Source: Xestospongia bergquistia (lineage: Eukaryota > Porifera > Demospongiae > Haplosclerida > Petrosiidae). Taken from it: a DNA stretch of 64,000 nucleotides. Every line of letters begins with the position of its first letter. Position 1 is the first letter of the stretch. This document shows positions 31,160-54,914 of the stretch, in pieces. The notes below the pieces were generated by a model. The model made no database searches. It was not told where the DNA came from and worked only from the letters and a program-made list of their open reading frames with translations. The stretch covers positions 3,994,301-4,058,300 of the forward strand of contig OZ014423.1 of assembly GCA_963965975.1 (NCBI GenBank), in the 5' to 3' direction. Made by a program: the position numbers and the translations under genes.

Positions 31160-31258
31160 CATCATTGGACTGCTTTGCATTTTGCATCAAGGGAAGGTTA
31201 CTTTGACTTAGTTCAGTTACTCTTAACAGCTGAGGCAGACTCCAATATTCGTAACAAG
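31160..31258 (+). CDS. Main gene, ankyrin exon 1 seen
   Basis: One 33-residue ankyrin repeat per exon, phase 0 at both ends: HHWTALHFASREGYFDLVQL then LLTAEADSNIRNK. It has the TALH..A..G....V.LLL signature. Its flanking introns are homologous to those of the exon at 35003-35101. Confidence 0.85.
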
Positions 31259-34200
31259 GTTTGTATTATGTATAGGGAAGGTTTATATTCCATGTACTTG
31301 TGTATCGTGTTCACTCCATGTACATGTATGTAATATTACTAGTATGTATTACATCAGTACAGAATATTATAATATTCATGTACATATATATCACTAAACC
31401 AATAATCTTATACAACTACTGCCCTGACTATTGAAGCTACATTGTCATTTCAGTGTGTTTTTGTTATTCTGGTATTGTGATCTTTTAGATAGTAGTAGAG
31501 TATTCTATTAAATTAATAAGGCACATCACCTTGATATTCTAAATTTTTGCTGCATTCTGTTAGTCCAGAACAGTGAAAATAGAGTCATCATTATCTTCAA
31601 CAAGAGATTTAGCCTATTTTTATTCAAACTAATTAGGTACTGGTAAAATTAATTTTGAAGTCAGACAATGCTATTCTTCGAGGCAGCAAAATAATATATG
31701 GCTGAGTGGGGTTACTATATTGGAGAGGAGAGGTCCCTGTATAAGATTTGTTAAAACATAAAGTCACCAATACTACCTACTATATGGTAGTTATTTATAT
31801 ACAATACAGTGTCGCCTCTCCCTGTCATCTTTTATTAACAAAGCTATTAAACTTTTTGAAAGTTAACCCACCTAGGCAACTAATATATGATACCCGTTCA
31901 TTACTACTATTTGTTGGCTTAACTACTTACTATATAATTGGCTTCAGTATATTTTATTGCCAGTTCACCTATGACAAAGGATCTATATATTAGTGTTATC
32001 ACTATACTCTAGTTGATGTGCTATTGACACTCACACAACAACTGTCCAATTTATAGTATATGTAACTTATATCATATACAAAGCTTGCTTTAATTTAAAC
32101 CCACAGCAAATTATTGTTTCAATAATTCTTTTATGTATGTATGTCATATCATATAACAGGCTTTCAGTATCTAAAGTCATTGTGTACATATAAATAGAGA
32201 AATGGGTGTTAATTGTATTTTTGTTGAATGTAGTATTTATTAATATAGATATTCCTCAAATATGTCAGCAATACATAGTGTTAGAACATAGTGGGATGTA
32301 TAATTATTACATCTCAAATGACATTGTTGTCTATGAGATATACTTATGAATGGCTAATTTAGAGTGAAGTAGATTAATAAATTTTATATAGATAGTAAAT
32401 AGAATTTAGTAATTTTAGTTTTGTGGGAGTCTGACTACATCTATGAAAGTATAACTCAACATAACTGTAAAACTTGACTGTGTTCATCTATGAAATAAGC
32501 TAGGTTTTGTGAAAATTAGCAATCAAGAGATAGTACAGAATAGAATCCTTTAGACTTAATTTATTTTATTGCATAGTGGGGACATAGTCCACTTCATAAA
32601 GCCTATTGGAAAAGTCACCATAACATTTTAAAATTGCTATGTTCATTTGGAGGAGATCTGGACCAAGTTAGAAATGTAAGTGATAAATGTAACAATAGAT
32701 TTACTATAAATGATGACCTAATTATATGTGGGTACATGTCACAGTTATAATATATTATTTATTTTAACAGGATATCTTACTTTTGACTTCAGCTGAAAGT
32801 GGTGATATACATAATGTAAATGTAGCACTTGAATCAGGTGCTAATGTCAATGTTCGTCATAATTTTGATAAAGTTAGCATATTGATTATAATGTATGCAT
32901 TGTTAATAGTACTTGTGGTTTATTATTTTATAGTACTGCTGTAAGGGATAACTAGAGGGTTCAAATTTTTGTGTTTTTACAAAAAAATCTGTTATTCACG
33001 AAATGAAATTTTGATTATGCCAATTTGAGATGTATGTGGAGAAATTTAAAACCTTTGCAAAAAAGCTAAGAAAGATTAGTTTTATTGACTGTTAACTTAA
33101 GGTTTATTGATATTTAACTACATATAATACAAACTAATTTAGGGAGTAAAAGCAATGGGACATCTGTGATTACTAATATTAACTCACTGTGCCATATGAT
33201 AAGGGAACCCATTTTTTCAGTGACTATCAGCAAATGTACATTCTATGACATTTGATTGACATGATTGAGCAGTAAACACTGTAACAAGTTAAGCAATCAT
33301 TACAAAGTGTTATGTGTTATAATTAAAAAGTGTGATAAAGATCAATATTTCTGAAATACAGCATATAGTTAACAATATTAATTTTAATTGCATGGCCGTG
33401 TTTTATGTGGGCAGTAGATTTAGTCTTGGATACTGACAATTTTAAACTTTGAATACCTAAACCTTTTCAGTATGTTTTATGATTGTGAACTTATTTAACA
33501 GATACATCATCTTAAATAATACATTGATAAGGCCAAATGGCATAAATATCTAGAGGGTGTGAGGGCAAATTGAACATTTTCAGTCTGCCAGAATGATGTC
33601 TGAAGCAATCTGAGACAATGTTACCCTCATTTCTGCCATATTTGTATACTTTTGAAAATATATAAGATTGGTGTATGGAGTTTCAATTACATTGATATGT
33701 TCAAGTCAATCAAAAATGGAATTTATATGGTTTGTTATAGCAGACTGAGCTAAGTAAATAAAAGACACAATTTTCGTCCAGAGATAAAATATTTAACAAA
33801 TTTCATATACCAAAACTTGGTAGTATCAATTATTACCAGTAATAATTGATAAGCTTCATTTGGATAATTTTTACTATAGTTTTAGTAACTATATCTTCTA
33901 ATGTAGGTACCTCTTAAAAATAATTCCACAGTGAAAAGGCACCTATTGTTAGAGCAGGAAAGTAAAATTTAGAAAAAAAGGCACTTGAATTGTTATGTCA
34001 CTTATTTTTATATTTTTAGATTTAGTTTTTTAAATAGGTTATATCTGAATTCAGCAAAATTTGATGGTTAGCCAGTAAGAAAGATTAAGATATTCATAGA
34101 CTAGCATGTCTATAAAAGCATCAGTTGTTTTAGTTTTATAAGTAAACATGATACAGACAATAGGAACCAGCAATCTTATATGACTGCTACCATAACTGTT

Positions 34201-37200
34201 GATCCTAAATTTCAATGTCTTGTATTCAGGCTTTATGCACGCACTTGTAGAGAGTAACAATGTATTATAATAAATTATCAAACCAGAACTACTTAGTATA
34301 AGCAATTTCTATTGCATTTTGTTAGTCCAGAACTGTCAAAGTACAGTCATTGTAGTTTACAAGAGAAAGTTTAGTCTATTTCTATTCTGATTACTTAGGC
34401 ATTGGTAATGTTAATTGCAAAGCCAGAGGGTGTCTATTATTACAACAGGCAAATGATATATAAACAGGATGGATGTCTATATTTGAGAAGAGAAAAGTTA
34501 AAAGAAAATATCACCAATACTACCTACTATATGGTAGTTATTTATATACAGTACAGATGTCTCTATTGTCTTTTATCTTTTCATTGACAAAGGTTGGGAA
34601 CTTTTTGAAACTTCATTTCTGTTAAAACAAGAGGAAATTTGAGTCCTACTACTTTAAAGTTGTTCATTTTTGCACAGAAAACAGTGGCCATTACTCACTA
34701 TCAGAATTTGAATATCATAAATGATATCTTTAATAAAACTAATAGTACTGTTACTGGCTATTAGAGTTAGGGTTTGAGATAGTCATTGTATATTATAATA
34801 ACTGCAATTTAAACAAAAGATGTACTTCTGGTAAAAGTTAAAGCTGTCATTACTGTAATAAATAACTTGTAATGTTGTTATGATATAAATACTGTCACTA
34901 TGATGTAATTGATTGACTTTATACATTTATCTACTGTATTATTGAACAGTTATTAATAATTAATTTGTTTCCACATTTATTACACTTTTTATTCTTCTCT
35001 AGGATCATTGGACTGCTTTGCATTATGCTTCAAGGGAAGGACATACTGAGATAGTTCGGTTACTCTTAAAAGCTAAGGCAGATCCCAATATTTGTGACAG
35101 GGTTTGCATTATGTATATAGAGATGGTTTATATTCCATGTATTTGTGTATTATGTTCACCATGTATATGTATGTAATACTACTAGTATGTACTATATCAG
35201 TACAGGATATTATAAAAATATACATGTATATGTAATTGATGTTACTATTGTTAGTAAACATGTCGTTAAAAAGTTAGCATTTGATTTGGATGGAGCTTAT
35301 TCATTCTCTATTTACTCTGTAGCTTTCAATTAGCCCTTTTGATATTGATAAGCAGAATTTGATGTCATAAGGTCTTGGTTGTTTTTATACTTAAAAATAG
35401 AGAGAGCATAACCTCATACTTATGTATTTAGGCAAAGATAAGTATAACCTTGTATATACTGTTTGAACATAAACATAATTTACAAGATATGTTGGAAAAT
35501 AGTATACTCTGGAAGTCTCTGTGTAATGTTTATGGTGGAATTCCTTTGACTGCAGAGTAAACAATAAAATGGCTGCTTGTTTTCCATTAGAATATGGTAT
35601 GTTGTCTGTCTATCTACCTCATAACAACTTAATCAGCTTAACAGACTTTGAATATTTTGACCTAAAATATAATGACATCTTTGAAATATCACATTCCATC
35701 TTATCGTTATTAACTGAAACTTTAATTGGCACAAGCAGTAGTTATAAAGTATTCCTTTTCTTTGCTAAGCTAGTAATTAGCAATGATATTCCCTATCACT
35801 GGTTTGAGAAATAGTGGATGTAGCTATTAGAAATTTCAATGTCAATTTCTTGTTTAAATCTTGTGTTAATAAAGGATTAATAACCATAACCAATTGCAAC
35901 CATCAGTAAATGTGATCTGTTATGATAGTACATTTTCCTTACTAATATCAGTTTAAAAGTTGTAAATTTGTAGACATTACTAAACAGTATTGACATAGCA
36001 GTAGTTTTGTGACAACAACTGCTGATATGATAAAATAATGTGATAATTTAAAGCATAACAATTATAAGACATGAGTTATGTTTATCTATATGTTAAAGTG
36101 TAGACACGCAATTATTAATATTATTAGTGGTTATCACTAACAATATTCACAATGGGAGGTAAATCACTTATTGCCTGTAGTAGTTGAGAGTGTCATATCC
36201 TTTGCACTATCAACATTTCCATAACGGTAATAATCATGACAACCTGTTCAATACTTTGAAAAATCTAGTGGCATATGAGCGATGCAAGGAGTTATTAGTA
36301 AAACCTTTTATTCAATCTGTACATGCACTTATGTTATGAAGAAATTGCTTTATAAGTATAGAAATGAGAATTATGTTCAAACTCATTTCTGTATTACTAT
36401 GTACAATGAAATAATTAACAAGCATTTTGTAGGCTTTCCAACCACGTATGACAATGTAAAAATATAACTATATTATAGTCATCAGAGAAGTATAAACTAT
36501 TCAGGTCAGCAATAATATAGCAGAACATAGACACTAAGCTTGCATGGATACTAGTCTAAAAGAACCAATGATGTTTATAATGTTTTATATTCTTATTGTA
36601 TTACTTAATGTTGAATAGAGTCTTTTGATGTCCTAGTTTATTTAGTGACTCTATATAAAATTCATAATAATTATATATCATGGGATGAGGTATAGCTAAT
36701 AACGGGACTTTGTTAGTAGCTTGTAAGTATATTTTAGCTACTATTTATTGTTTATATTAAGTGTGCTGTATGTGTGGTGTAGTCACATTTATTGGTCAGA
36801 TTTGACATGGTAGTATAATAACTATAATTAATGTGATTTCTGTAATTATTCTATTTTTGTTCTCTAGGATAGACGAACACCAGCGCATAATGCAGCACAG
36901 AGGGGTCATATTGCTGCCCTAAAGCTATTAATTGAGGAGGGACAAGCGAATATAAATGCTAAAGACTTTGTAAGTCACATTTCAGTTTACTTATGAAACC
37001 ATTTACATTTGGTATTTAAATTGTTAGCAACCTGTCTCATACCCAGACTGCCCTTCACTTCAGATATTTTGATGCTGTGTTTTGACATAAAATGCTGAGA
37101 GAACAATAATCCAAAATCATTTACAGTTGAAAAAATTATTAAGTCCAATTTAAATGACAACCCCCTTGAAAGTAGAAGTCATTGATAGTATCTTGATAGT

Positions 37201-40200
37201 AGAAGTCATTAATAAGAAAAGGACATACTTTTCTAGATTTTTTAATTACTTTCATCACCCTAAATTTCAGTTTTCACCTGCATTGTGTCAAACAATAGGC
37301 TTCCAGCTTCAGATGGAAGGACAGTGTCATGTGGACAAACCATTTTTCTTATATATATCTTGGTAAGACCATGTTCACTGGACCTACTGGGCAACAGTGA
37401 ATTTGGTCACACCTGGTTTCCTGAAAGAATATTCTACTGTGTAGAAACCTGAAAAATTAAGTAACACAGACTGAATTTTCTGTAGTAGTATTTCATGTCT
37501 CCTTTATATGCCTATCATTAGTATAAATGATTAATTGTATTATATCAATTAATGACTTAGTTCTATGTGACCATGCCTGTCACTGACTATCACTCATAGA
37601 TCTGTTCAGATTAGCCAAAAATTTTATGAAAAATAAATCTAAAGTGTATAAAGAACCTCATTGCTATGCTATTAATATATAATTGAAATTCAGTTGATTT
37701 CTTGAGTATCATACTTAGAAATATGACAATACACCTTATTTCAAGTGAATAAGTGTTTATTTTGGTTGGTTGCTGCTGCTGCTTGTGTCATTTATGAGAT
37801 AACTGTTATTAATGAACGTGGTATATTTGCTCAATAAAATTGAATTTTCTTTATTAGAAACAACAATTGGTCTTTTGCATAGTGTCACTGCATAGAGTAT
37901 GAAGTGTGTTAGAGCTATTACTAAATTACGATTTTCTTGCTTCTTTTTTCTTTTGTTCTGATATATGGTGATCGTTTAAGTGAAAAACTAAGTCTTGATA
38001 CAAAAATAAATAAATGTGTAAGGAAGAAAATCAAATAGACCTTCAAATATAATTAATTTCTGTGTTACAATTTTCATTACTAGTGTCATTGTAAAATGGT
38101 TGTGCAAAGACACTTAAATCTACAGAAGTAGTAATATTCTATACATTTTGTATAAATATTGAGCCAAAATGTGATGATTCAATGCCAAATACATCAAGAT
38201 GTGAAAAATAATGCTTTAAAAACTACAAAAATATTTAAAATCTTCTATGATTCAATAATTTTTTTATGAAGCAATGTTTACTTCATTTCATGCTTAGTAA
38301 ATACTTAATAAATGTTTGACTTATAGTATATTTCATGCTATATAACAAACTACAGTGATAATTTACAACTGTGTTTGATGTATTGGTAGTCTTTACTAGT
38401 TAAAGAGGTAGTCTTTGATGTGATCTCTATCGTATGTATATGCTTTTTGTCTTAGGATTTATCATGTCTGTCTTCTTGTCATTGTAAAATACTCAAACCT
38501 TTCTTTTAAAAGGCTCAGTTTTTTTCCTATTGCTATTAAAATTTTATAAGCAAGTCAATCTGTTTTGTCATCATATTATACATGAAATATATATTTCATT
38601 GCTTATAATGATACCAATATTATTTATAAGTTCTCTATTTCATTTTTAGTTTTGCAATAATCTACTACATTTAGCCTGTCAAAGTGGCAATGAAGAAACC
38701 ATAGACTACCTTTTACATAATGTCCAGCTAGATCAAGACCATCTAGTAGCTCTAAACAGTCATCAACGAATGCCATTAGATTCTATTCCACCATCTAGCA
38801 ATAACAGATTTCAATTACTGAAATTGTTTCAACCATTTGAACACTGTCACATTAACTACCTCACAGAATCATATTCTAAAATATTTCTCTGTGGAATGAC
38901 AGAAGCTGGTAAAAGTTCATTGGCTGCTGTTATCTCTTATCGTGCTGATAAGTGGTATCGTGATGATATTGACCCACAAATGTGTGTTGAAGATGTTGTA
39001 TTACCAACTGCCGGAATTGAGTACCACAGTGTTCGCAGTTGGGAAATAGGAAATGTTGTAATATTTGATTTCTCTGGGCATGCAGAATATTACAGTAGCC
39101 ATGCTGCAGTACTGAAAACTCTCTTATTGAGGTCACCAGCTGTTTTTGCAATTTTAAGTAACCTTACTGATGACGAGGAGACAATTAAGAAGGACTTACT
39201 TTTCTGGTTTAACTTTGTTGAAAATGTCTGCATGAATTTAATTAGCTCAAGTCAAGTGCTTGTCGTTGGAAGTCACATTGATGAAGTCCCCAGTAAAAAA
39301 GACTTCCAGCCTTTTATAAATGAAGTAGCACGTCTGGGGGTTCGTTTTCAGAATTACAAAGGGTATTTACCAATGGACTGTCATCGACCAGGAGGAAAAG
39401 GTGTCAAGGAGTTTATGAAGAAATTAAATGAGAGCTGTGAAGCTGTTGTGGACAAAAATGATAAAATGAGCTACCACTGCCATTGTCTAAATTCTTATCT
39501 TCAACAGCTTAAGGTAGTTGCTATTAGCCTAGATAACCTATGCTCCAAATTAATGAAACTAAATGAACCTTGTCTTTTGGCTGATCAATCAACAGTGTTA
39601 GAATTTTTGACCATTCTTGGAAGCAAGGGTCTTATCTTGTTTCTTGCTAACACATGGGTCATTATTGACAAAAAGACTCTCTTAACTGAAGTTAATGGTG
39701 TCTTATTCAATAAATGTATTGATCGTGAACGTAAACCAGTTGCCAGTAATACTGGTATAATGCCTGTCTCTACCCTAGATAACCTCTTCAAAGACCACAA
39801 CACCGATATGCTGATTCGTTTCTTAACAAGTCTACAATTTTGTCATCAAATGGACTCTTATGCTGTCTCTAGTATCACTAACAATGTACCATCTGATGAC
39901 TTCCCTATTAGTAAGGATGAGAAGTTTTTATTCTTTCCTGCACTTATTACAGAAGACAAGCCCACTACAATGTTTGAAACGACAGATGGATTTGGTTGGT
40001 ATTTGTGGTGTCCTGATGCACAACAATTTCTCTCCATGAATTTTCTCCATACTCTTCTTCATCATTTAGCCTATACTTGCTGTCCTACTCCCCCTGATGA
40101 CACTGATGTTACTTTTAATGCACCAATCAAGGAGTTGGACCGAGTCTGTACCATATGGAAAAATGGTATTTATTGGATAGAGGAGAAAAATAATATTGAA

Positions 40201-43200
40201 GTAATGGTTGAGGTTACTGAAGCCAACCGATGTGTTACAGTTCTTGTGTCTCACAGCAGTTTAATAGAAAGTTATCAACTCCGTGCATCACTCATCAAAG
40301 AAGTTCTCAATCTTAAAAATAAATTATGTCCATGTACTTCAAAACAGTTTGTTATTCCACCTGGTAACATCAAGGATATAGCGTATAACGAAAAGGGAAA
40401 TTGTATTGTCTATGCTCTTAGAGAAGTTGCTAAAGGAATCCTAACAAGAGAATCAGTGACTGCTACTAACAAAGAAAAAGTTGATGTCCAATTAGTTGTT
40501 GGTAAAAAGGAACCATACCTCTGTATTGCCCCACTTGTGACCAAAGCTCTCTTTACCAACACCAACAAAGATCTATCACTACCAGATCACTATGTCCAAC
40601 ATATAAAAGAAACATGTGGGAAGATCATGTCCCTCTATCCATACCCAAATTTTTCCTACCTCTCTGTAAGGGAACATCTCAACAAATTTAGTATTTTTGC
40701 TGGACGTAATCCTTTGGTAAGTTTATATTCACACTCTCTAAACTGTATGTCTTTGAAAAAATTTTTTGTCTTCTCTATATAGATTATCCCTCCTCCACCA
40801 ATAAAAGATGAAGTAATACAAAGATTATCAAAACATGTTCAGACAGGAGCAGCAAAAGGTTTAAATTATGTCAGTATTTTCTTGTATTGACTTAGTTATT
40901 ATAACAGATTTTAATATTCTTGTTGCCAAACCTGACATAGAGATGTTGTCATCTAATGAAAGAGGTATATCTTCTTGTCAATAAAATGTCATGTTTCCAA
41001 TATTCAGTTTAATTTATTATTTAATTTTCTCATTTTATGGTTACTACTTTTATAATTTCATTACTCTCATTAATTGTTATATATTGTTTTATTACAGGTA
41101 GTAATCAGGAGACAATGTTAGCAAAGGATAGTAACAAAACATTTGAATTTAGTCATTTCCCTAAATTATGTATGTTAGGCAAGTTTATAAGATGGTTCTT
41201 TATCTTATTGTACTTTTAGCTGAAAGGCCTACAAGACGAGAAGTTTTAAAGGAACTAACTTTTATCAATTTTCAATGGCGTGACATTGGTAATGGTCTTG
41301 GAGTCAGTTACAATTATCTTCAAGGTTTGGCTGAATGCAATGATTCAAATCAAAGAAGACTTGATCACGTTATTGAGAACTGGTTTAACATGAATGGTCA
41401 AGGTGAAGGTGCTCCTGTCACCTGGAACACAATCTTGGATGCTGTAAAGGAACCACCTGTTCAGAACATAAATCGAGCTATGAGGATATATGAGTACTTG
41501 AAAGCAAAAAGCTCTGTACAACAGGATACTCAAAGTAAGTGGTTGATATGATCTTTAGTTGCTAGAATTATATAGACTGCTTGCATAATAATTCAATGGT
41601 CACTACATGTTGGCAGTATTGGAGTTTTGTCATTATAATTGTCACTTTGCTCTACTCAATATTATATAGAATATGCTAAGGAATCAAGTGCTACTAATTC
41701 AAGTGAATTCAATATCACTGACAGTTTGTCAATGGAGCATCAAGTATGATTTATCCTCTTAAATAGTTGATTGTATTAATTGTAGTTAATCACAAATTCA
41801 GTTCATACTAGGAGATATACTTAATTCAAGCTGCCTCACCATGTTATATAATGACTATAGTAAGAATATTACTGATGATTTATAGCTAAGACAGTAATAT
41901 ATTCCAACAGAGCTTTAACACAGTAAAGTTCAAAGCAATATAAATCATGGAGCCTATACTTGATAATAGCCAAGCTCACTAGTAGCAATTCAATACTAAC
42001 TCAGTATTTCCTCTTATCAGTAGCATAAATAGCTTCTGTCAGTAATTAGGAACTTAAGATCATTTGCTGTTGGTCAACTGTATCCAACCTTATGTTCAGG
42101 CTTAATGTTAGAAAAGGTATCTGGTATATTCACAGGCAAGATTAGAGATTTCAGTCAATATGTGATTTGTTCGAAAAATGCAAGAAGTAATTAAACAAGT
42201 GGACATCTCAACATGACGCAAAGTCAACTGAGCAGTCATGTCACTAATATGTAGCCACATTCATGAGGTGTTCTTTGTGTTGTGGGTTCTGAGAAGCATT
42301 TTTAGCCTTACATAGACAAATTAATAGTTTCACTAAATAACAATGATTACTACTCACAATGACATTGTAATTCCTTACCTATAGGTGTAATAATAATATA
42401 AATAATAGTTACATTATCAATCTTGTTTATTGTAGAAATAAAATAATTTATATCTTTACACCTCACATGTCATCACTTATATCCTGTATCCAATAGCAAC
42501 ATTCTACTAATGAACTATCAAGTGAACACAAAGCAGAGACTCTCACTAGTGATACTACACAACAAGGTAATATAAGATATCTAAATAATAAACACTATAT
42601 ATAATGTATGTGATGATTTCAATTGTGTTTGTATACAATTGTTTTACAGTCTATGTTGTTATATTTGACATTAATAGTATATGTATGTTGATACATAGAC
42701 TATTTATAGTTGCATTTGATTGTTGATATCATGAGAAATTAATATATATTAAATCACTACTTCTACATTGTTTACTATCTGTTCTTTAATTCAGTTACAT
42801 TTCCTTTTTTTGTTACATTCTGTATGCACTTGTGATCCATCAGAAATATTTCTGGATTATTTTGCTGATATTTGTGATGCCATTGAAGTTAAACCTCTTT
42901 CCATTGTAAACTGGCTTGTTACTGCTAGATTGATATCACCAAATTTTAAAGATGATGTACAAAGTATGAGTGGTGATAATTATGACAAAGCAGACAAAGT
43001 AGTTAATGAACTACAACGACAGGTTAAGGAAAAAGGAATTGATTTTTTAAAGGCTATCTGTGTTTTTCTTCTGAGCCAAAACCATACATTAAAAAACATT
43101 GGCATAAGAATGAAAAGTCAACTAGAAAGTGAGACATTTTATTATACAATATTACAATTATATTAGAAAATAAATATTGTATAAATGAGTCTTTATTTAT

Positions 43201-46200
43201 GTTATAATTGAGTAATCTACTGTATACAATAAATGTATTTATTTTTATGTATTATAGGCTAAATCCACCTACTTAGTATCTAGTCCTCTACATGCTTCAA
43301 AGTGAAAGTGTTATCAATGGCAATAACATAAATTTACACCACTTACCACATGACAGCATGTGTCAACTCACAAATAACTAATTACAAGTTGCCTTAGCCA
43401 CATTAAGGAGAAAGAGTGTGCAAATCCCATTCTATAGTATTAGAAAGACTAGCTTGTGATCATATTTGCAAGTTTAACAATTATGTATGCGATTAAATTG
43501 CTAGGGGTATAATTAAAAATTTCCTTACATGGTCATTGTCAACGTAATTGCTGGAAGAAATATTTGTGTGAATTTTGTCCATGTAGAACTAGTTGACACA
43601 TAAAACATGCAGGTATGGGCACAAACAGCTTGCAGGCATGGGCAATCTATAATTTTTTTTAGCCAAATGGTTTATAATAGCAAATTCTTAATGGTATATT
43701 TTTGCTTTTAGCAAGTAGCTGTCTTGCACGCTATAGAGATTATTTTGTAATTGTGATATGAAAAATCACAAAATGTGATAATATATATATAAGCAGTTAG
43801 TTTGCATGCATGTGAAGTGCCTCTGATCATCTTTGTTTGGTCTGAGTGTACATATGATTCACACAATTATCAAACACTCTCAAATAACAAGCACTAGTCA
43901 TTGCAGACATGCAAGGTCCTTAACTTCAACTACTCAAATTACAGGGTAAGGCTTGGAGATAGGCTTTCTAGTAAATGTGGTGATGGATAATTCTGACTTA
44001 ATGTTGATTTACCTTCTGTCTGAATTATTTTTGATGGCACAGTACATGTATGTACTTTGTATGTTCATGTCTGACAGTCCTTTATATTATATATTTGATA
44101 ACTGCTATCAAATTTATAGATGAATAACATAAATCAATCACTTACTTTTTACACTTCATGCAAAGTAATATGTTTGACTTCAAGTAATCTCATTAGTTAG
44201 ATACTGGTAACTAGTTTTAAGTTACCTCATTTCTTCGAAGTACCTCATTAGCTTTCTTATCTCCAATGAAGCTATCTGTGTAGTATCTTGATAAATTGAT
44301 TATAGTTTATAAATATAGTTGGAAGCTATTGACTAAATTTGAAGATTGTTATTACAATAAGTCATTGCCTACATACTTGACTTTATATATAGTGACTATT
44401 ATTGAGACTATAATTTCTTTATAGTTTCCTTGACTCTAATCTATTATTAATTGATATTGTACATTATATGAACTGTGTAAATAGTCAGGTCTGATCATGT
44501 TGCTAATGTTATTGTAGCTGTATACATTATCTTTTATCCTTTTAATTTGGTATATTATTAGTTACAGGAAGAGTGATGAAAGAAAGTGAAACTAAAGATC
44601 TTTTGCTGGAAAATTTGCAACTAGTAAAGGAACAATCAACTCAACTCAAAGAAGGTATTATTGGTAATCTTATTATGATATATGTTGTTGTTATTAAATA
44701 ATCACTGTGACTATATGTGTAATTATTATTACACAGGTCTATTTAAAGGAATGGTAATAGTAGGAAAGAACTATTCCAGTTTTAGTGCTGCTGAAGATCA
44801 ACAGTTATCTGTTGATGAATGTGGGCTAAAAATTTTAATACCTGCACAAGTTATCACACCAGTAGATGCTTCATATGAAATTATTGCTAATGGATTGTGG
44901 GGTGACAAATTTGAATTTCCTGAAAATACCATACTTATCAGTGGAGTGTGTTATATATCAGTATCTAGTTCATCTCAGCTCAATAAACCAGTTACAATTC
45001 AACTAGAACATTGTGCTAATATTACAGATGAGAAACAAGCAGAATATCTCAGTTTTGTTGTTGCTAAATCTGGTCCACCCTTCAAGTTTGATTATCTACC
45101 AGGAGGATCATTTTGTCCTGGTTCACGATATGGCATTATACATGTCAAAGAATTTTCGTTCCTAGCTATAATAGCACTTTGTGCTGCAGTTAGTGGTGCC
45201 ACGTTTGGTCTAGGAGAAGTAGCTCTAGGAGGTGCAGTTGGGAGTGCTATTGGATATCATTATGCAACTAGTAAGTATATACTGATCACTTATACATGTA
45301 TGGGATAAAATGTTTAGAGCAGTGCTGTTGAGTCAGTAATTGTATGTTTTGTGTTATAAAGTAAATCTTGAATTAAAACCCAACATAATAATTATACGCA
45401 ATAACTACTTTATACAGATACAGAAGTTCCTAACTGCAACTATCGAGCTTATATTTTCTACAAAGTAGAGAATAGGGAAACCTGGAACATGCGATTCACA
45501 GTTGTTCAAGATACCATATATTCTTATGTAATAATGTTCAATGCTTTAAATAATTATTTTAATCATTAATTTCTCTTATATAGGTAATTCTAAAACTAAC
45601 GTCTAATTTTGGTGACGAAGAAGATAGCTTTCGATTTTGTTTTGCTACTAAGGTATCTTTATCACCAGAACAGGGTGATAGAGAAGAGAGTTTAAAGTTA
45701 TTAGGATTCCCTGATGAAGCAGTTCAGGGATGGGAAATGACACCTCTACGTAGACCACTAGTAGTAAGTGATATGTATTTTGTGAGTGAGTGCATGTGTG
45801 GGAGGGGGGATGTGGTATTGATGAAAAATATATGTAAGCTACATGTACTTTAAGTTGTCTATTTTTACATTTTAATTGTTCCAATATAGATTAACAGGAA
45901 AGATGCAGATGACTTTAATCAGTCATGGATTCTTAATCCTCCCAATATTCCTGTGAAAATATCTGCTAATCCTAGAAGGAGTGATTTCAGAAATAATCTT
46001 AAACATCCTATCACAATTGAAGGTATTAAAGTTACTGATAGTCCAACATCATCTGACAATAGGCCTCAAATTGTGATTACTAGATCACTGGCCAGTAATT
46101 TACAAAGTAAGTGTTTGTGTAGCAATTCTATTTGTAGTATCCCAATTATATATAACTTTATTCTGAGCATTCCTAATAATGTCATTAGAGATATTATTTT

Positions 46201-47980
46201 TAAGCTAAGTGCCCAAGCACAAGTCAATTTATTGTGGTTGTTAATATTCTCAATTCTAAGCGAGATTATATATTATATATATACCTTTAGTACATCCAGT
46301 AATGTTTGTGTTATATAAGTTTTGTAGGTTATTGTAATAACAAATATATGTCTAAAGGTCCACACTTATAATATACACAAATGACAGCTAAAGAACTCAT
46401 CAAGGCTTTAGAAATGAATTTAAAGCTAATGAATTTTATTCCAATTTATGATAAGTATGCCTTCATTCAGTGATACACTTATTAATAATATTCAGTGTGC
46501 ATTACAAGTGAATGATGAAAAATCTCAAGGGGTATAGGAGGAAGGGTGATAGACAAAAAAAGATTCTAGCTTGTCAGATATGTCATGATTCAAATGTCCA
46601 ATCACATAAGACAGTGGTCAAGAAAATGCAAACATAAGTACAGTTTTATTCAGTAGAGTAGATTTGCCCATCAAAATGAAGGGCTAGTTCAACTTTTTTT
46701 ATAGGAGAGAGTTTCTTAGCAACACCTTATGTATAAGAATTTGACCAAGACTCCCATATATTGCTCAACAGGACACTTCTGTTTAAGCCATAACTACCTT
46801 GTTCATAATGATCATACAGATGTATATAGTATTAGAAACTCATGTACATGCACATTGTAGGCTTACTTATATGAAAAAGTGCATTTTGTTGTAGAAGCCC
46901 CTTTACAAAAGAAAGGGTTGTATCTTGTATGCTTTCCAAGATACAAGAATGTTGTCCATTTGTTGAGAATTAAAGATTATTTTCTAAGAAATTAAGTCAT
47001 TACTACACCTCCTTTTTATATTAACAAGTCATTAACACAATTAATGAAGTCTGTTTAACATTCTACCATATTCATTGAAGAGGTGTGGTATAGTAACTAT
47101 TACAAATGTGTATAAATGACCCTTATCCTACTAACCTTTTGATTTTATAACAATATGCTCAATTGATACACATTTCAGAAATTACCTTAAGTATAGAGAA
47201 TTCTCTTAATATACAATGCTTATCACAAAACACAGATTCTAGCGAACATTATGCAATCTGATGACTAATTACATCTGATATAGATATAGCAGTTGACAGT
47301 CTGGTTTGTTGACTATCAAACCAATAATGATTTTTGAAAATGTTTTTATGGAGGTATAAACATTTGTGTGACTACTTAATCTTTGAATACTTGAAGCTTC
47401 AACCTAATTTTCTTTCAGCAATGTATAGCTATATCATATAAAATAAATCTAAATGTACAAACTTCCTGTTCATAGACACCACTAACTGTGAATATTGTGT
47501 TTGTATTTTGGTATTTTGTATTTGGAATTATTGGCAGTTATTTTGAACAGTTTGACTTGTTAAGTCATTTATACATGTGTTAATATCAATAACTTGATTA
47601 CAATAATTATTATATTGTTTAACAAAGAAAATCATTTTCTTAAATCTATACTAAATTATATATTTTTCCATTTCATAATAACAGGTAATATGGTTGAAGG
47701 AGGTGTACATGTATCTACTTTAGATGATCTCTTGGATCAACAACCTACAATTCAAGAAATAATTACATATGCTGAAACTGCAAAGTGGAATAGGTTGGGT
47801 GTGACACTAGAACTGAACAGTGAGGCACTAGCTGGATGTCATGACTGTACCAGTATGTATCAGTTATGGATAGAGGAGAAAGCTGAAAGAGCAACAAGGA
47901 GGAGTTTATTAGATACTTTAAGAGATATTGGACAGAATAATGTAGCAAGAAAGTATGAAGAATATTTAAAACAACAGTAA
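31160..47980 (+). CDS. ANK-Roc-COR-DD-CARD-ZU5-UPA-DD signalling scaffold (19 exons, N-terminus missing)
   Basis: Joining 19 exons gives about 1,648 residues with no stop and matching phases at every junction. Exons: 31160-31258, 32577-32675, 32771-32872, 35003-35101, 36868-36969, 38650-40716, 40783-40858, 40908-40964, 41098-41169, 41220-41534, 41670-41743, 42497-42566, 42844-43128, 44562-44654, 44737-45270, 45418-45527, 45584-45763, 45890-46106, 47685-47980. The front half (ankyrin, Roc, COR, death) resembles DAPK/ROCO proteins; the back half (ZU5, UPA-like, death) resembles UNC5, PIDD and NLRP1-type FIIND. It is probably a cytoplasmic, GTP-regulated platform for apoptosis or innate immunity (inference). 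No kinase, LRR, NACHT or caspase domain is present. The stop is followed by AGTTAC, so the terminal CAGTAAGT could also be a donor to an unseen exon. Confidence 0.8.
32577..32675 (+). CDS. Main gene, ankyrin exon 2 seen
   Basis: 33 residues, WGHSPLHKAYWKSHHNILKL then LCSFGGDLDQVRN. A diverged ankyrin repeat (SPLH kept, the usual A..G partly lost), bounded by TAG and GTAAGT, phase 0. Confidence 0.8.
32771..32872 (+). CDS. Main gene, ankyrin exon 3 seen
   Basis: 34 residues, DILLLTSAESGDIHNVNVAL then ESGANVNVRHNFDK. The first helix is degenerate, but AESGD and GANVN fit the ankyrin pattern. The donor is GTTAGC, weaker than the others. Confidence 0.75.
35003..35101 (+). CDS. Main gene, ankyrin exon 4 seen
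   Basis: 33 residues, DHWTALHYASREGHTEIVRL then LLKAKADPNICDR, the closest to the ankyrin consensus. Exon and flanking introns resemble those at 31160-31258, so one arose from the other by a tandem duplication of about 3.8 kb. Confidence 0.88.
35569..35814 (+). other. Unassigned 81-codon frame inside an intron
   Basis: An ATG-initiated frame with a leucine-rich look (LSVYLPHNNLISLTDFEYFD) within the intron between ankyrin exons 4 and 5. No splice sites or homologous copy support it. It could be a chance frame or a relic of an inserted leucine-rich fragment. Confidence 0.2.
36868..36969 (+). CDS. Main gene, ankyrin exon 5 seen
   Basis: 34 residues, DRRTPAHNAAQRGHIAALKL then LIEEGQANINAKDF. 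Its counterparts in the minus-strand paralogue are the exons at 52748-52849 and 55996-56097, where TPAHYAA is kept. Confidence 0.85.
38650..40716 (+). CDS. Main gene, last ankyrin + Roc GTPase + COR exon
   Basis: One 2,067-nt exon (689 residues). It opens with a final ankyrin repeat (NNLLHLACQSGNEETIDYLL). Roc domain: P-loop GMTEAGKSS (38893-38919), DFSGH switch II (from 39067), and GSHID in place of NKxD (39271-39282), a substitution common in Roc-like GTPases. COR follows, with hydrophobic blocks GLILFLANTWVIID, FLHTLLHHLAYTC and a C-terminal part with GKKEPYLCIAPLVTKALF. All GTP-binding motifs look usable. The exon is uninterrupted; an ATG at 38770 is internal, because the frame and the ankyrin repeat extend upstream to the acceptor. 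Confidence 0.88.
40783..41169 (+). CDS. Main gene, linker exons between COR and death domain
   Basis: Three small exons: 40783-40858 (IIPPPPIKDEVIQRLSKHVQ...), 40908-40964 (FNILVAKPDIEMLSSNER) and 41098-41169 (SNQETMLAKDSNKTFEFSHF). The proline-rich start and acidic, serine-rich rest suggest a flexible linker. The first intron is 66 nt. The second is only 49 nt with a weak GTTTAA donor; if it is retained, the protein ends 10 codons later at TGA (40888-40890), giving a short ankyrin-Roc-COR isoform. Confidence 0.7.
41220..41534 (+). CDS. Main gene, first death domain exon
   Basis: 105 residues. RREVLKELTFINFQWRDIGN, then LGVSYNYLQGLAECND, then RRLDHVIENWFNMN, then VTWNTILDAVKEPPV, then AMRIYEYLK. 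The W-x-DIG-x-x-LGV, RL-x-x-VI-x-x-W and TW-x-x-IL-x-A signatures are those of metazoan death domains that bind other death domains. A decayed copy is at 7908-8225. The minus-strand paralogue has none. Confidence 0.85.
41670..42566 (+). CDS. Main gene, low-complexity linker exons after first death domain
   Basis: Exons 41670-41743 (KYAKESSATNSSEFNITDSL, MEHQ) and 42497-42566 (QHSTNELSSEHKAETLTSDT, TQQ). Ser/Thr/Glu-rich and probably disordered. The first has relics at 291-364 and 8643-8716. The intron between (41744-42496) holds nothing else I can identify. Confidence 0.7.
42844..43128 (+). CDS. Main gene, CARD-like domain exon
   Basis: 95 residues in one exon: EIFLDYFADICDAIEVKPLS, IVNWLVTARLISPNFKDDVQ, DKADKVVNELQRQVKEKGID, FLKAICVFLLSQNHTLKNIG. 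The helix pattern, LVTARLIS turn and K-x-x-x-VV-x-EL-x-x-x-V-x-x-KG-x-x-x-F match the caspase-recruitment (CARD) fold better than a death or death-effector domain. CARDs make homotypic contacts with caspases or adaptors. The ATG-initiated frame starting at 42768 overruns the acceptor (CATCAG) and is not the real start. Confidence 0.7.
44562..44654 (+). CDS. Main gene, short coiled-coil exon
   Basis: 31 residues, ITGRVMKESETKDLLLENLQ then LVKEQSTQLKE. The heptad-like leucines suggest a short coiled coil linking CARD and ZU5. Two acceptors six bases apart (TTAG and TTACAG) keep the same frame, so a two-residue variant is possible. Confidence 0.6.
44737..45270 (+). CDS. Main gene, ZU5 domain and Gly/Ala-rich hydrophobic segment
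   Basis: 178 residues. ZU5-like beta domain: DECGLKILIPAQVITPVDAS, then EFPENTILISGVCYISVSSS, then KPVTIQLEHCANITDEKQAE, then FVVAKSGPPFKFDYLPGG, ending HVKEFSFLAI. After it comes LCAAVSGATFGLGEVALGGA with VGSAIGYHYATS, a hydrophobic glycine-zipper-like stretch that could be a membrane or packing helix. The F-S pair at 45153-45158 occupies the place of the FIIND/PIDD autoproteolysis site. The ATG at 44682 lies in the intron and is not used. Confidence 0.75.
45418..46106 (+). CDS. Main gene, UPA-like region exons
   Basis: Exons 45418-45527, 45584-45763 and 45890-46106, about 169 residues: YRAYIFYKVENRETWNMRFT, VILKLTSNFGDEEDSFRFCF, GFPDEAVQGWEMTPLRRPLV, INPPNIPVKISANP-like strands and PQIVITRSLASN. 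Beta-rich and placed exactly between ZU5 and the terminal death domain, where UNC5, PIDD and ankyrins carry UPA. The call rests on position and composition more than on a diagnostic motif. Confidence 0.5.
46107..47684 (+). other. 1.6-kb intron before the last exon
   Basis: The longest intron of the 3' half. AT-rich, with only chance frames. No repeat or RNA gene recognised. Confidence 0.6.
47685..47980 (+). CDS. Main gene, C-terminal death domain exon
   Basis: 97 residues to TAA: LDDLLDQQPTIQEIITYAET, AKWNRLGVTLELNSEALAGC, SMYQLWIEEKAERATRRSLL, DTLRDIGQNNVARKYEEYLK. W-x-x-LG-x-x-L, the central L-W-x-x and the T-x-x-x-LL-x-x-L-x-x-IG-x-x-x-x-A tail are textbook death-domain positions. As in UNC5 and PIDD it follows ZU5-UPA and ends the protein. 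The ATG within the frame at 47594 lies in the intron. Confidence 0.85.
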
Positions 47981-49229
47981 GTTACATTGTCCATACATTA
48001 ATGTATACATGTACATTGAATGGACCTCTTAGCTAAGAATAGCCTCATATTATTACATGACATTAATCTATATTAAATTTCGACACTAATAATAACTTGG
48101 TGGTTTTTTAGATGTAATGTTAATTTCTATATTGTTTATATAACATTGGCTTTACAACATTATTGACTATGTAAACAACATGTGACCACAAGCAAACTAA
48201 TTTTCTAATTTTGTAGGTAGGAAAAAATGAGAGTGTTCAATCTATATAAGTGATGTTATGTATATTAACTAATACACTATAGTAAGTATACTATATATCT
48301 GTGCTACAGGTTTATGTATTTTTTCTCTCTGTTGCAATTTCTATGATATTCTTGTACTATCTTAGACTATTGTTACTCATAGCCTACTTGCTGCTATTAA
48401 GAGTTATGTAAGGTAAGAATAAGTGAATCTGAACAACAAACTATAGTTTAGTAAACGTCACTTACAGTTAGTCTTCTTGCTTAACCATTTTCTTTAAAAA
48501 TACTAACATAACTAGTATGGGAAGATTTAACATTTTAATCATTTACATACATAGGAGCTATACTCTAATTTATTATATTGGTATACATAGTTAGGTATGT
48601 TCTGTAGTTACTGTATATCTATTAAATCCACAGATACACACCTCAATATCTTATAAGAGAGATCCTTGTAACTGCTGTAGACAATTATTTTAACCATGAA
48701 ATGAAGCTGATTACACAACTTTAATTAACTACCTATGACTATGTACATCACTATACATAGAATAGTGTTTGTTCTTTAATATTCTTTTGCAGTATTTAAT
48801 GATAATAATTGAATAGTGGGCATTACAGAAATGGCAATATGCAATGGTGTTCTCTAATGACTTCAATCAGGTCTTAGATCAACATAAGAGACATAAGTTA
48901 GGTAAATAACTGAATTCATCGTGTAAACTATCCTTTGTTAATATTGTCTCCTGACTACTACCTGAAATTTTAACAAATTAATGAAAGTAATCAAATATAG
49001 TAGTATTAGCTATATATAGAGCCAAAAAATTAAATAATGAATAGTATTGAAACATGCTATTTTCTTAACAAGTAGATATACCTCCAACACTAGATGTGGG
49101 CACTTTCTTCTCAGGTTTGACAATGAGATTAATAACATTTGTAATAACAACTGAGGGAATACAAGAGATTACTGACATAATTAGAACCTTTTGTTGTTCT
49201 TGTCTGAACATGTTTAGATAATCTTTGTA
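47981..49229. other. Intergenic region between tail-to-tail genes
   Basis: 1.25 kb separating the two convergent paralogues. An ATTAAA at about 48074 could serve as poly(A) signal for the plus-strand gene. There is no trace of the death, CARD or ZU5 exons the minus-strand copy should have had. Homology to the plus gene's linker persists only over about 49070-49230. Confidence 0.6.
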
Positions 49230-49935
49230 TTACTTCAAAACACTAAATTTGTTGAGATGTTCTCTAATGGAGAAGTGGGTAAAATCTGATGATGGATAGA
49301 GTGACATGATCTCCCCACATACTTCATGTATATGTTGGACATAGTTATTTGGTAGTTGTACATCTTTGTAACTCTCAGTAAAAAGAGCTTTGGTAACAAG
49401 AGGGACAATCCAAAGATACGGTTCCTTTTCCCCAACAACTAATTGGATAGCAGATTTTTCATCATTAGTGGAAGTAACAATTTCTTTTAGCAGTACTCCT
49501 TTAGCAACTTCTCTAATAACATAGACAGTACGATTTCTCTGTTCATTATCCATGATATCCTTAACATTACCAGGTGCAATAATGAACAATTTTGAAGTAC
49601 ATGGACATAATTTATTTTTAGATTAAGAACATCTTTGATGAGTGATGCACGAAGTTGATAACTTTCAATTAAACTGCTGTGAGACACAAGAATTGTAACA
49701 CATTGGTTGGCTTCAGTAACCTCAACAATCACTTCAATATTATTCCCCTCCTCTTTCCAATAAATACCATTTTTCCACATAGTACAGAGTCGATGTAAAA
49801 CTTGAATTGTTGGATTATAGGTAATATAACCAGATTTCATGGGAGTAGGAGGACAGCAAGTATAGGCTAAGCAATGAAGAAGAGTATGAAGAAAGCACAT
49901 GGAGAGAAATTGTTGTGGTACATCACACCATTTCA
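49230..49935 (-). pseudogene. Broken COR half of the minus-strand paralogue
   Basis: Two frames cover the COR region: 49487-49936 (QQFLSMCFLHTLLHCLAYTC) and 49230-49589 (GEKEPYLWIVPLVTKALF). The upstream junction lacks the segment equivalent to 39853-40005 of the plus gene and is out of frame. The T-loss in CTAAAAATAAA (plus gene CTTAAAAATAAA) makes the second shift. At 49230 the frame hits TAA where the intron and IIPPPPIKD of the plus gene are deleted; the rest of that linker (VIQRLSKHVQT-like) is still readable in another frame just below. Confidence 0.8.
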
Positions 49936-51131
49936 TGGCAAAATTGTAGACTAGTTAAGAAACGAATCAACATATCTGTATTATGTTTAGGGAAAAGGTT
50001 AGCTAGAGTAGAGACAGGCATTATACCAGTATTACTGGCAATTGGTTTACGCTCACGATCAATGGTTTTATTGAATAAGACACCATTTACATCAGTTAAA
50101 AGAGCTTTTTGGTCAATAATTACCCATGCATTTGCCAGAAACAAAATTAGACCTTTGCTTCCAAGAATGGTCAAAAACTCCAACACTATGGATCTATCTG
50201 TCAAAAGACAAGGTTCATTTAGTTTCATTAATTGGGAACAAAGTTCATCTAAGCTAATGGCTACATCATCAAGCTGTTGAAGATAAGAATTTAGACAGTG
50301 GCAGTGGTAGCTCATCTTATCATATCTGTCCACAACAGCTTCACAGCTCTCTTTTAATTTCCTCATACATTCTTTCACACCTTTTCCTCCTGGTCGATGA
50401 CAGTCTACTGGCAAAAACCCTTTGTAATTCTGAAAACGAACAGCCATACTTGTTACATCATTTACAAAAGGCTGGAAGTCTTTTTCACTGGACAATTCAT
50501 CAATATGACTTCCAATAACAAGTACTTGACTTGGGTTACTTAATTTTGTGCTCACATTTTCAACAAAGTTAAACCAAAAAAGAAGTTCTTTCTTAATTGT
50601 CTCCTCATCATCAGTAAGGTTACTTAAAATTGAAAAGACAGCTGGTGATCTCAACAACAGAGCTTCTAGTACTGCAGCATGGCTACTATAATATTCAGCA
50701 TGTCCAGCAAAATCAAAAATTACAACATTTCCTATTTCATTACTGTGAACACTGTGGTACTCAATTCCGGTGGTTTGTAATATAACATCTTCAACAAATT
50801 CTTCTGGATTATATTCATGAAAAAACCACTTGTCAGCACGATAAGAGATAACAGGAGCCAATGAACTTTTACCAGCTTCTGTTTTTCCACATAGAAATAT
50901 TTTGGCATATGACTCTGTGAGATAGTCTCCTTGACATTTTTTGAATGGCTGAAACAATTTTAGTAATTCAAATCTATTACTGTTAGATGGTGGAATACAA
51001 TCCAATGGCATTTGTTGATCATTGTCTAGTGCTACTCGATGATCTGGATTTAGCTGGTTATTATGTAAAAGGTAGTGTATGGTTTCTTTATTGCCACTTC
51101 TACAGGCTAAATGTAGTAGATTATTGTCATT
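49923..51131 (-). pseudogene. Intact Roc GTPase half of the minus-strand paralogue
   Basis: From the acceptor at 51131 the frame is open through a last ankyrin repeat (NDNNLLHLACRSGNKETIHY), the P-loop GKTEAGKSS, DFAGH and GSHID to a stop right after TSLQFCHEMV. All GTP-binding motifs are kept and many residues differ conservatively from the plus gene, so this half may have been under selection for some time. Without COR it would be an unusual stand-alone ankyrin-Roc protein. Confidence 0.75.
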
Positions 51132-52747
51132 CTAAAAATTAAATAATGAAAATGATTTAGCAACTGTATTGTTGCAAGTAATAGAATATATTATATATCA
51201 TGGCTAACATTATGACATAAACAGATAAACTTTGTTATATATATATATGTTTCATAAACATGATCCATAACAGAAATCGTGTTTGCCATTATTGAAAAAA
51301 AGCTAACTTTCACATTTTAAAGTATTAGGCATGAAATCTTTACATTCTGGATCAATATTAATATGAAGAAGGAGTATTGAACATTATTAGCTCTGGAGAT
51401 TAAAGTGTTTGTGTGTAACAATTCCACAGAACACTAGAAGTGAAAATTGTAGCACTGAAACTTCATTATTTTGCAAGTCCTATTTAATTTCCTCCTTCCT
51501 TGTATATTTGTTCAATTTCATATCAACACTTTGTCTTTCATTTGAACATTCATTAAAACTCAGAACACAAAAGAAAAGAGATAAGGAGATCCTCACTAAG
51601 CAGTTGTTCTAACATGTTTACTCTATGTAGTGAACACTATGTATGAGGAGACCAATTACTGTTTTTCATAGATAAATTCAATGATATTAAGCAAGTTATA
51701 CTACATTCATTTATAACAGTTAGCTCATAAATAACCAAAAAGAAACAATGATTCACTTGAAGTAAAATGTACTGCCATATTACTAAGTATTATATCCAAG
51801 TAATTAACTGAATTTAATTATTATTAGAAAGTCAGCAATGAGGTTTTAAGCTTTAGATTTAGTTTATGTACCTATTTTGTCCAATGTAAACAGATCTATG
51901 AGTGACACTCACTGACAAGGCAGAGTCAAGAAAAACTATCTTATTAATTCATGCAATACTATTTATCATTTATACTAATGACAGCCAAATAGGAGACATG
52001 ACTAATACTATGAGAATGACAGTTCATGCTACTTCATTTTTGCAGATTTTTAGACAGTAGGATATTTTATAGTGAACCAGTATGATAAAATTTACAGTTT
52101 TCTAATAGATCATGTGAATCATGATTGTACCTAGAAATAAACAAATGTCTTCAAAACATTTCAATATGTTTCTACCTGAACTTTGAAATCAGTACAATAT
52201 ATATGAACTTTCTAAGAATCCTATTATTTAATTATAGGAAAATCAATGAAGAATGCATTCTCAAATTATAAAAGAGGGCCAAAACTATTGAAGCCACAAA
52301 GAGAGAGGTAAGTCACAACAGTGTACACAACTGTTAATGTGAGTCATGTGGGAGGGGGATTAATAAAGAGAACATAGCACATATAATTGGTAAGCAATTA
52401 ATTATTCATAATCACTAATTATGTAATCATTAAATGATTATTGTCATTGGTAAATTTAGACATTTGACATTTGACACTTTGCAGGAGAAATTTAAGAGAT
52501 AAAAGAAATCTGGAAAAAAATCCATTCTTTTGTATTGACAACATATATCATAGTTAGTATGTTTGTTGTACTTTTACAACTGTGAATGAATTTGGATTAT
52601 TGTTCTTGGAATTTTTTTGTCAAAACATGTTTTTTAAATATTTGAAATAGTGGGCAGTCTGGGTATGATACAGGTTTGTATCATTTTTAAGTACCACATG
52701 TCATATTTCACAAGGAATATTTCATAAATAACTATAATGTGACTGAC

Positions 52748-52849
52748 TTTGTCTATAGCATTCATATCAGCTTGTCCTACTTCATGTAATAACTTTAAAA
52801 TTTCAAAATGACCCTTTTGAGCTGCATAATGTGCTGGTGTTTGTCCAAA
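52748..52849 (-). CDS. Minus paralogue, ankyrin exon (TPAH type)
   Basis: 34 residues, FGQTPAHYAAQKGHFEILKL then LHEVGQADMNAIDK, phase 0, CTAG acceptor and GTCAGT donor. Corresponds to plus exon 36868-36969. Confidence 0.8.
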
Positions 52850-52948
52850 CTAGAAAAAAAATTAAAATTTTTTAATTATAAAAATTACATCAACAATATT
52901 CTATATCTATTAAATATTGATTAAAATCTAGATATAATATGCACTGAC

Positions 52949-53050
52949 CAACTTGTCACAAATATTGGGATCTGCTTTGAAGTTTAATAGTAGCTGTATG
53001 ACATCATAGTGACCTCCATCTGAAGCAAGATGTAGAGCTGTTTTCTGAAA
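52949..53050 (-). CDS. Minus paralogue, ankyrin exon
   Basis: 34 residues, FQKTALHLASDGGHYDVIQL then LLNFKADPNICDKL, phase 0, GTCAGT donor. Part of a family of four near-identical exons in this gene. Confidence 0.82.
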
Positions 53051-54133
53051 CTAGAATAAATACACAGGTATATAATGTTGATTATTATATAAGATTAAAA
53101 GTTCATTAGAATATTATATTACATATCTATGGAAAAATAAACGACATATTAAAGTCAAAACAAAATTAAAAATTTATAAAATTTTCCTAAGATGCTTTTG
53201 ATTGTGTTGGTAATTGAAGTCATTTCTCTATTATTGAAAACTGGACATTTTTGAAGTATTAATGATAAAATGATATACATGTATTAAGGGTAGAAGCTAA
53301 ATTTATAAGACTTTTCTCAGGGTTAAATCGCACAAGGCTAGGTCTTTGAGTAATCATGCTTAGGGTGAATCAAGTGCTGGTTAGAAGAGTAAATTAAATG
53401 AATTGTTGTTAAATGTGTCTCCAGATGTTTCACACAATTAAATTCATTCAATGCTTTAATACTCACACACACACACATATATATATATAACATACAAAAA
53501 GTGGACTTTGGCTTTCCATACTAATATAATCCAAAATAACTTTATAATAGTCTACCATGGAAATTTGTCACTGAATAAAAGTTATTTTCTATGCTTAATG
53601 ATTAGAGAGAACTTGGACTACATTATTATGTTTATACAATTATTACTATATATAATAATTGTAATACCTGGTAAGAAAAAAAGGGATGAGTAATGCTTTG
53701 ACATTTGGATCATAGCTACCATTGCCACACCAATTTTAACACTCACATAACATCAAGTTTAAATTTGATTTACATATTTAGTGTATGACACTCCCTTTGT
53801 ACCAATATTAAAATGGGATTGACTTATAAATTGGCTACACTTAAAGTTCAGACTTTTGGGTGGGATATAGTAAGTATTTGAAAGTGTAATATAACACTGA
53901 CAAGACCACTGTGAATATGAAGATGATTTCAAGGACATTTACTACTAATATAACAGGCCACACTGAGTGATAGCTGCCAATGACTTCATTTGTTAATTCT
54001 TTACTAACAAAATATTTAAACATCATGTCAACATAGAAATTTTTAATAACCACACTCATAACATTTTATATCTATTAGATAATGATTTAAATCTAGTAAC
54101 ATTTACTAATGTTTATACACAATATGCACTGAC

Positions 54134-54232
54134 CAAGTCACAAATATTGGGATTTGCTTTGGAATTTAGTAGTAGCTGTATAATATCACAGTGACCTCCT
54201 TTCAAGGCTATATGTAGAGCTGTTTTCTGATT
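54134..54232 (-). CDS. Minus paralogue, ankyrin exon
   Basis: 33 residues, NQKTALHIALKGGHCDIIQL then LLNSKANPNICDL. Introns on both sides are homologous to those around 52949-53050. Confidence 0.82.
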
Positions 54233-54815: not shown

Positions 54816-54914
54816 CATGTCACAAATATTGGGATCTGCATTCAAATTTAAGAGTAGCTTTACGATATCACAGTGACCTCCTTCCAAGGCTAAATGCAGA
54901 GCTGTTTGCTGATT
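54816..54914 (-). CDS. Minus paralogue, ankyrin exon
   Basis: 33 residues, NQQTALHLALEGGHCDIVKL then LLNLNADPNICDM, phase 0, intact sites. Confidence 0.82.

Follow-up and report, generated by a model that had tools for sequence, protein, structure and literature searches.

Gene structure at the locus

The stretch of DNA analysed here, which we call the window, comprises 64,000 nucleotides from the sponge Xestospongia bergquistia (C13:3994301-4058300), and the genome searched with it amounts to 146 Mb in 21 contigs. On the forward strand of the window, positions 31160-47980 hold a predicted gene which, when rebuilt from the raw sequence by means of splice sites and reading frames, consists of 19 exons with compatible phases throughout, no internal stop codons and a product of 1,646 residues plus stop. 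A preliminary description of this DNA had already read the locus as a 19-exon chain with agreeing phases, which the reconstruction bears out, and had given its length as 1,648 residues, which is corrected here.

AG precedes and GT follows every exon, the exception being the last, which closes at TAA. Two donors form the weakest joints of the chain, GTTAGC behind 32872 and GTTTAA behind 40858; the latter, at 40859, is supported by two comparisons read by eye, namely that a relative (L036) has GTATGT at the corresponding place and that the GT of a rival donor 11 bases downstream is lost in 6 of 24 copies. Because its first exon is without Met, the predicted chain is incomplete at the N terminus, and a search for an initial exon returned generic ATG-donor stretches only, none of them convincing.

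Domain assignments along the chain

Ankyrin repeats occupy the first five exons (E1-E5; 31160-31258, 32577-32675, 32771-32872, 35003-35101 and 36868-36969, all phase 0) and extend into E6, with Pfam Ank matching at an E value of 3.5e-34 in five stretches across exons 1-6, so that the ankyrin signatures noted earlier hold. The 689 codons of E6 (38650-40716) carry the last of these repeats, a Roc GTPase domain and a presumed COR region, as judged from Pfam, motifs and genome copies; more than 400 residues follow Roc within this exon. The window copy alone matches Pfam Roc at 0.0054, below the cut-off, while 23 of the 24 family Roc exons scanned match it (best 7.4e-6), and the best match in a PDB profile search with Roc was the Roc domain of LRRK2 (0.046). 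The motifs GMTEAGKSS, DFSGH and GSHID, singled out in the preliminary description, correspond to Roc G1, G3 and G4; in the alignment of 24 Roc exons, residues G82, K88, S89, D140, G143, H209 and D211 of E6 are invariant and the P-loop G87 is conserved in at least 90%. Both the profile matches and the conserved motif residues uphold the Roc assignment.

Three linker exons (E7, 40783-40858; E8, 40908-40964; E9, 41098-41169), identified from reading frames and, for E7 and E9, from copies, lead to the first death domain (DD1; E10, 41220-41534). Pfam Death is matched by 18 of 23 DD1 exons (best 1e-4), the window copy lying below the cut-off at 0.0015; a PDB profile candidate for DD1, RIPK1 at 0.35, was outranked by unrelated matches and discarded. 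The second death domain (DD2) forms the last exon (E19, 47685-47980, stop codon 47978-47980) and exceeds the cut-off at 2.6e-5, and the presence of two death domains is accordingly retained.

Beyond linkers E11 and E12 (41670-41743 and 42497-42566; frames and paralogues) lies E13 (42844-43128), described previously as a CARD-like block. Its AlphaFold model (predicted local distance difference test 96.6; predicted template modelling score 0.87) was compared with the PDB, and rows 1-35 of the result are filled by CARDs and CARD assemblies, apart from three designed proteins and a single entry whose title says little; as modelled, the exon has the six-helix CARD fold. It is this predicted fold that sustains the earlier assignment, and not the sequence profiles, in which Pfam CARD was found in one of 21 copies, at 0.043, with no match in the window copy, and a PDB profile search with the CARD alignment matched no CARD. 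Mutual homology of the CARD exon and DD1 is not claimed (hhalign probability 0.6%).

A further linker (E14, 44568-44654; frames and copies) precedes the ZU5 exon (E15, 44737-45270). All 11 ZU5 exons scanned match Pfam ZU5 (best 8.4e-6), the window copy over the cut-off at 3.4e-4, in agreement with the ZU5-like block first noted; a PDB profile search with the ZU5 exon alignment matched no ZU5. Three exons then stand at the UPA position (E16, 45418-45527; E17, 45584-45763; E18, 45890-46106), recognized by their 22, 20 and 18 genome copies, one of which holds a stop. The hidden Markov model search for Ank, Roc, COR, Death, CARD and ZU5 matched Ank, Roc, Death and ZU5. The Pfam scan of the window chain covered six stretches (the short linkers at 41670-42566 lie outside it, and the 5' end is open) and contained no NACHT domain; its list for the chain held no TRADD-N. 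PADLOC defence models gave a single weak match (mad8, 0.013), judged to be chance, and NCBIfam matches were at chance level only.

A single gene or two

We consider it likely that these exons make up a single gene, as predicted from the genome sequence. A paralogue at C6:7244009-7255308 holds E5-E19 in the same order and on the same strand, which makes one gene likelier than two; its amino acid identity to the window gene ranges from 56% (E8, partial) to 92% (E16), with 80% for Roc and 90% for ZU5, and its splice sites agree except at the end of E8. A second paralogue (C6:8102862-8086350, reverse strand) keeps this order too and holds E11-E12 and E14-E18 in duplicate. The linkers E7, E9, E11, E12 and E14 are free of stops in 23, 14, 9, 4 and 12 copies, respectively, the window included. 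As read by eye, a C1 relative (L026) has a GTAAGA donor immediately after its CARD exon, and that gene therefore also runs on past CARD; GTAAGT follows the CARD exon of L036 too, where the phase is not settled. The six domain exons show ratios of nonsynonymous to synonymous differences (pN/pS) of 0.48-0.78. The joined protein put forward earlier is thus kept as an architecture shared with the C6 paralogue, and as a prediction it is not proved.

Alternatively, two adjacent genes, one encoding ankyrin-Roc-COR-death-CARD and the other, starting at about 44568, ZU5-UPA-death, could have been duplicated as a block. ZU5 and DD2 copies do occur on C4, where the listed matches include no Roc exon, most Roc copies are without a listed ZU5, exon E14 contains an in-frame ATG, and the ZU5-UPA block has a history of its own. 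However, a splice acceptor precedes this exon both here and, as read by eye, in three C4 loci (L048, L051 and L052), the CARD exon closes with a donor of matching phase, and no stop codon separates the two halves, whose phases fit throughout. We regard two genes as unlikely, and treat the locus below as one gene.

A duplicated family with differing tails

Death domains abound in the genome (the best 150 of 983 candidates were scored; all 150 matched, and those listed all exceed the cut-off), and the protein, treated at first as singular, has many relatives in it. A search with the Roc-COR exon gave 69 genome matches, a lower bound, since 65 of 239 candidates were scored; 61 were used for counting, eight pieces of four inverted copies being dropped. 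Tail exons were assigned to a Roc exon if they lay on its strand, no more than 14 kb downstream and ahead of any further Roc, using 112 of 143 matches for CARD, 62 of 150 for DD1 and, out of 127, 55 for ZU5 and 32 for DD2; as matches were dropped, these counts too are lower bounds. At least 47 of the 61 Roc exons have a CARD exon downstream, and at least six, four of them near-identical C13 copies, are followed by DD1, CARD, ZU5 and DD2 in order; 12 have none of these listed downstream. Four loci on C5 and C1 (L056, L058, L061 and L062) show another order, ZU5, UPA position and a CARD-like exon, with the hydrophobic insert discussed below. From such comparisons we recognize a large duplicated family with a Roc-COR core, mostly followed by a death domain and CARD, whose tails differ and appear to have been exchanged. 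Short peptide patterns confirmed no relatives in prokaryote genome contigs or viral contigs.

Exchange is suggested for the ZU5 region. In one pairwise comparison with the paralogue at C6:7244009-7255308, made in 250-base bins, identity reaches 0.94-0.97 over about 44000-46000, a stretch that spans E14-E17 and some of E18, against 0.82-0.93 in the flanking 42501-44000 and 46001-48250. Synonymous divergence (Ks) from this paralogue is 0.038 for the ZU5 exon and 0.278 for the Roc exon, and a midpoint-rooted tree of 24 Roc exons, drawn without support values, leaves the three ZU5-tailed copies ungrouped. These patterns of identity, divergence and branching are best explained by gene conversion or by a tail cassette having been exchanged.

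Next to the gene, on the reverse strand at 48894-58145, lies an inverted, degenerate relative with ankyrin-like exons, a Roc-COR exon in three pieces (breaks near 49929 and 49616) and pieces like E7 and E9; that strand gave no DD1, CARD or ZU5 match over this interval. The gene and its inverted neighbour recur together on C13, at about 3411454, 3632910, 3822668 and 4032950, in four copies 190-221 kb apart that show 0-8 mismatches in each 3.3-5.1 kb stretch compared; either a segmental duplication took place very recently or the copies are an artefact of assembly. Elsewhere in the window, 74-1775 and 8426-10127 hold the same set of open frames at an offset of 8,352 bases; position 7913 has a decayed DD1-like piece interrupted by four stops, and E11-like pieces lie at 296 and 8648. 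On the reverse strand at 13032-15274 an open frame of 612 residues overlaps another of 158, neither of them with a convincing Pfam family; the shorter we take to resemble the tail of a Penelope-like retroelement.

The Phe-Ser site and the hydrophobic segment of the ZU5 exon

Within the ZU5 exon a Phe-Ser pair (45153-45158) opens a hydrophobic, glycine-rich segment, passed over in the preliminary description, that runs from the Ser codon to the end of the exon (45156-45270) and reads SFLAIIALCAAVSGATFGLGEVALGGAVGSAIGYHYAT, its S being the Ser of the pair. The hydropathy maximum of the entire chain, taken over 21 residues, falls within it. At the same place in 22 of 23 ZU5 loci the best 21-residue mean hydropathy is 1.95-2.47, the exception being a broken copy (L057); the pattern used for this count required FS, in some copies the 42 residues taken reach beyond the exon, and several of the loci are close copies of one another. 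The length of the insert differs among copies. We call the segment glycine-rich rather than a zipper, because its GxxxG spacing beats shuffles of the same composition (p<0.05) in just 10 of the 23 loci, which are related copies; the Pfam glycine zipper 2TM model was matched by one of 11, at 0.7.

The segment may be an ordinary membrane anchor, the protein being a tethered scaffold without activation-dependent insertion. The hydropathy of 22 of the 23 loci is consistent with such an anchor, as are the transmembrane segments reported for sponge NLR architectures (PMC12909245), but a single pass would place DD2 across the membrane from DD1 and CARD, the length of the segment varies between copies, and two divergent ZU5 exons are without it. 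We therefore think a constitutive anchor fairly unlikely.

CARD8, NLRP1 and PIDD cut themselves at Phe-Ser, and in CARD8 and NLRP1 this requires a His 27 residues ahead of the Ser (H270/S297 in CARD8, H942/S969 in rNLRP1; PMC3210808 and PMC8081665). Phe-Ser is present in 23 of 23 loci here, the search pattern itself including FS, and F140 and S141 are invariant in all 11 aligned ZU5 exons. In that alignment the residue at -27 is Pro and the sole invariant His stands at -49. The position of the His in the HFS of PIDD is taken in the loci by Glu, Gln, Lys or Asn. An invariant Lys lies three residues before the -27 position, within a stretch, FVVAK, that we take to resemble the FIIND sequence around its His. 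Of two divergent ZU5 exons without the insert, one (L086) keeps Phe-Ser, and the other (L087; C6:8476850-8477250) has Phe-Cys instead, a possible change of nucleophile. Autoproteolysis of the ZU5 domain at Phe-Ser is thus possible. In an extended and rather improbable form of this idea, cutting would proceed by changed chemistry, with the invariant Lys in place of the presumed FIIND His, and would free a piece made up of the hydrophobic glycine-rich peptide, UPA and a death domain (CARD in the C5 and C1 relatives); death-fold assembly and membrane insertion would then be a single step, and the ZU5 cassette would be a unit moving between GTPase-controlled receptors.

Proposed working of the protein

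The reading we favour, with a probability of about one half, is that the locus is one gene, whose product is a large receptor or scaffold inside the cell, composed of ankyrin repeats, Roc-(COR), a death domain, CARD, ZU5, a hydrophobic glycine-rich segment, a UPA-like block and a second death domain, and that it belongs to a big family with differing, apparently exchanged tails. A GTP switch and death-fold assembly of two kinds, as the preliminary description suggested, are proposed by analogy, with DAPK1, PIDD and NLRP1 as models; DAPK1 dimerises through Roc and its kinase, and GTP binding to Roc alters its activity (PMC6337361). The ankyrin repeats might sense a ligand or partner, and the GTP state of Roc-COR would govern dimerisation, so that the first death domain and CARD become free to assemble homotypically with adaptors or caspases. 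A ZU5-UPA clamp may hold DD2 and mask the hydrophobic segment until activation, upon which the segment would meet the membrane. What the sequence itself displays is the chain of exons, the order of domains, the GTPase motifs, the family and the insert, to which the predicted CARD fold is added; expression, switching, membrane contact and a role in cell death are inferred.

Several observations weigh against this reading. The gene model is a prediction from genome sequence, and the three bases before its Met-less first exon are TAG, an in-frame stop. COR and UPA, both named in the preliminary description, are not confirmed: Pfam COR-B was found in two of 24 Roc exons (best 0.046), and UPA in none of five copies of the block by Pfam, nor by PDB profile search. 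The ZU5 tail occurs in only those six or more of 61 Roc exons, four of them near-identical on one contig, and stops interrupt three of 27 Roc exons and five of 22 ZU5 exons. No signal of purifying selection was seen in the linker exons (pN/pS 0.76-1.14), nor for DD2 in two pairwise tests (ratio of nonsynonymous to synonymous divergence 0.70 and 1.23). Introns are also conserved relative to the paralogue at C6:7244009-7255308 (0.80-1.00), so that conserved exon order stems partly from recent duplication, and the ATG in E14 counts on the same side.

Two halves known apart, a DAPK-like Roc-COR-death and a PIDD-like ZU5-UPA-death, would thus be joined here with a CARD. Tens of copies with differing tails represent one way in which a receptor repertoire could diversify without adaptive immunity, and, should the segment after Phe-Ser insert in membranes, the protein would provide a death-fold route to membrane damage with no separate executioner.

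Comparison with known systems

Among the literature matches, which covered few subscription papers, no paper was found that combines a glycine zipper with ZU5, or Roc-COR, a death domain and Amphimedon, and no listed title or opening of an abstract shows this domain order. DAPK1 has ankyrin repeats ahead of Roc. Like the DAPK1 group of Roco proteins, characterized (PMC6337361) by Roc-COR followed by a death domain without leucine-rich repeats, the present protein has a death domain after Roc-(COR) and no such repeats; unlike that group, it adds CARD, ZU5, the hydrophobic segment, a UPA-like block and DD2, exists in tens of copies and has no visible kinase. A kinase ahead of the ankyrin repeats was considered and rejected, no place in the window being among the best 127 of 1263 candidates scored (the 5' end being open). 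The earlier label "DAPK-type" therefore fits the death domain after Roc-(COR) and is otherwise weak. That the gene is a DAPK orthologue with its kinase lost or hidden would agree with this shared order and with the ankyrin repeats, but sits poorly with the large expansion and the extra CARD, ZU5 and second death domain, and we judge it very improbable.

With PIDD1 and UNC5 the protein shares ZU5, the block that comes after it and a death domain at the C terminus, and its Phe-Ser stands where PIDD is cut (HF/S; PMC3210808); it differs in the replaced His of HFS, in the hydrophobic glycine-rich insert that separates ZU5 from the UPA position, and in a UPA that sequence does not confirm. The FIIND of NLRP1 and CARD8 likewise has ZU5 with Phe-Ser near its end, and the four C5 and C1 relatives share its order of ZU5, UPA position and CARD-like domain, whereas the window gene has no His at -27, no NACHT, a CARD before ZU5 and the hydrophobic insert. 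Sponges and other marine animals show lineage-specific expansions of death-fold and TRADD-N proteins, 357 TRADD-N proteins in Amphimedon among them (Kaur et al. 2021, PMC8195603). Those families are likewise large and domain-shuffled, some with ankyrin repeats; the present one differs in its Roc-COR core, its ZU5 tail and the lack of TRADD-N among the Pfam matches of the chain. NACHT-Zu5 genes are also reported from sponges (PMC12909245). The architecture is therefore not a new kind, and joins known kinds in variant form within a large modular family.

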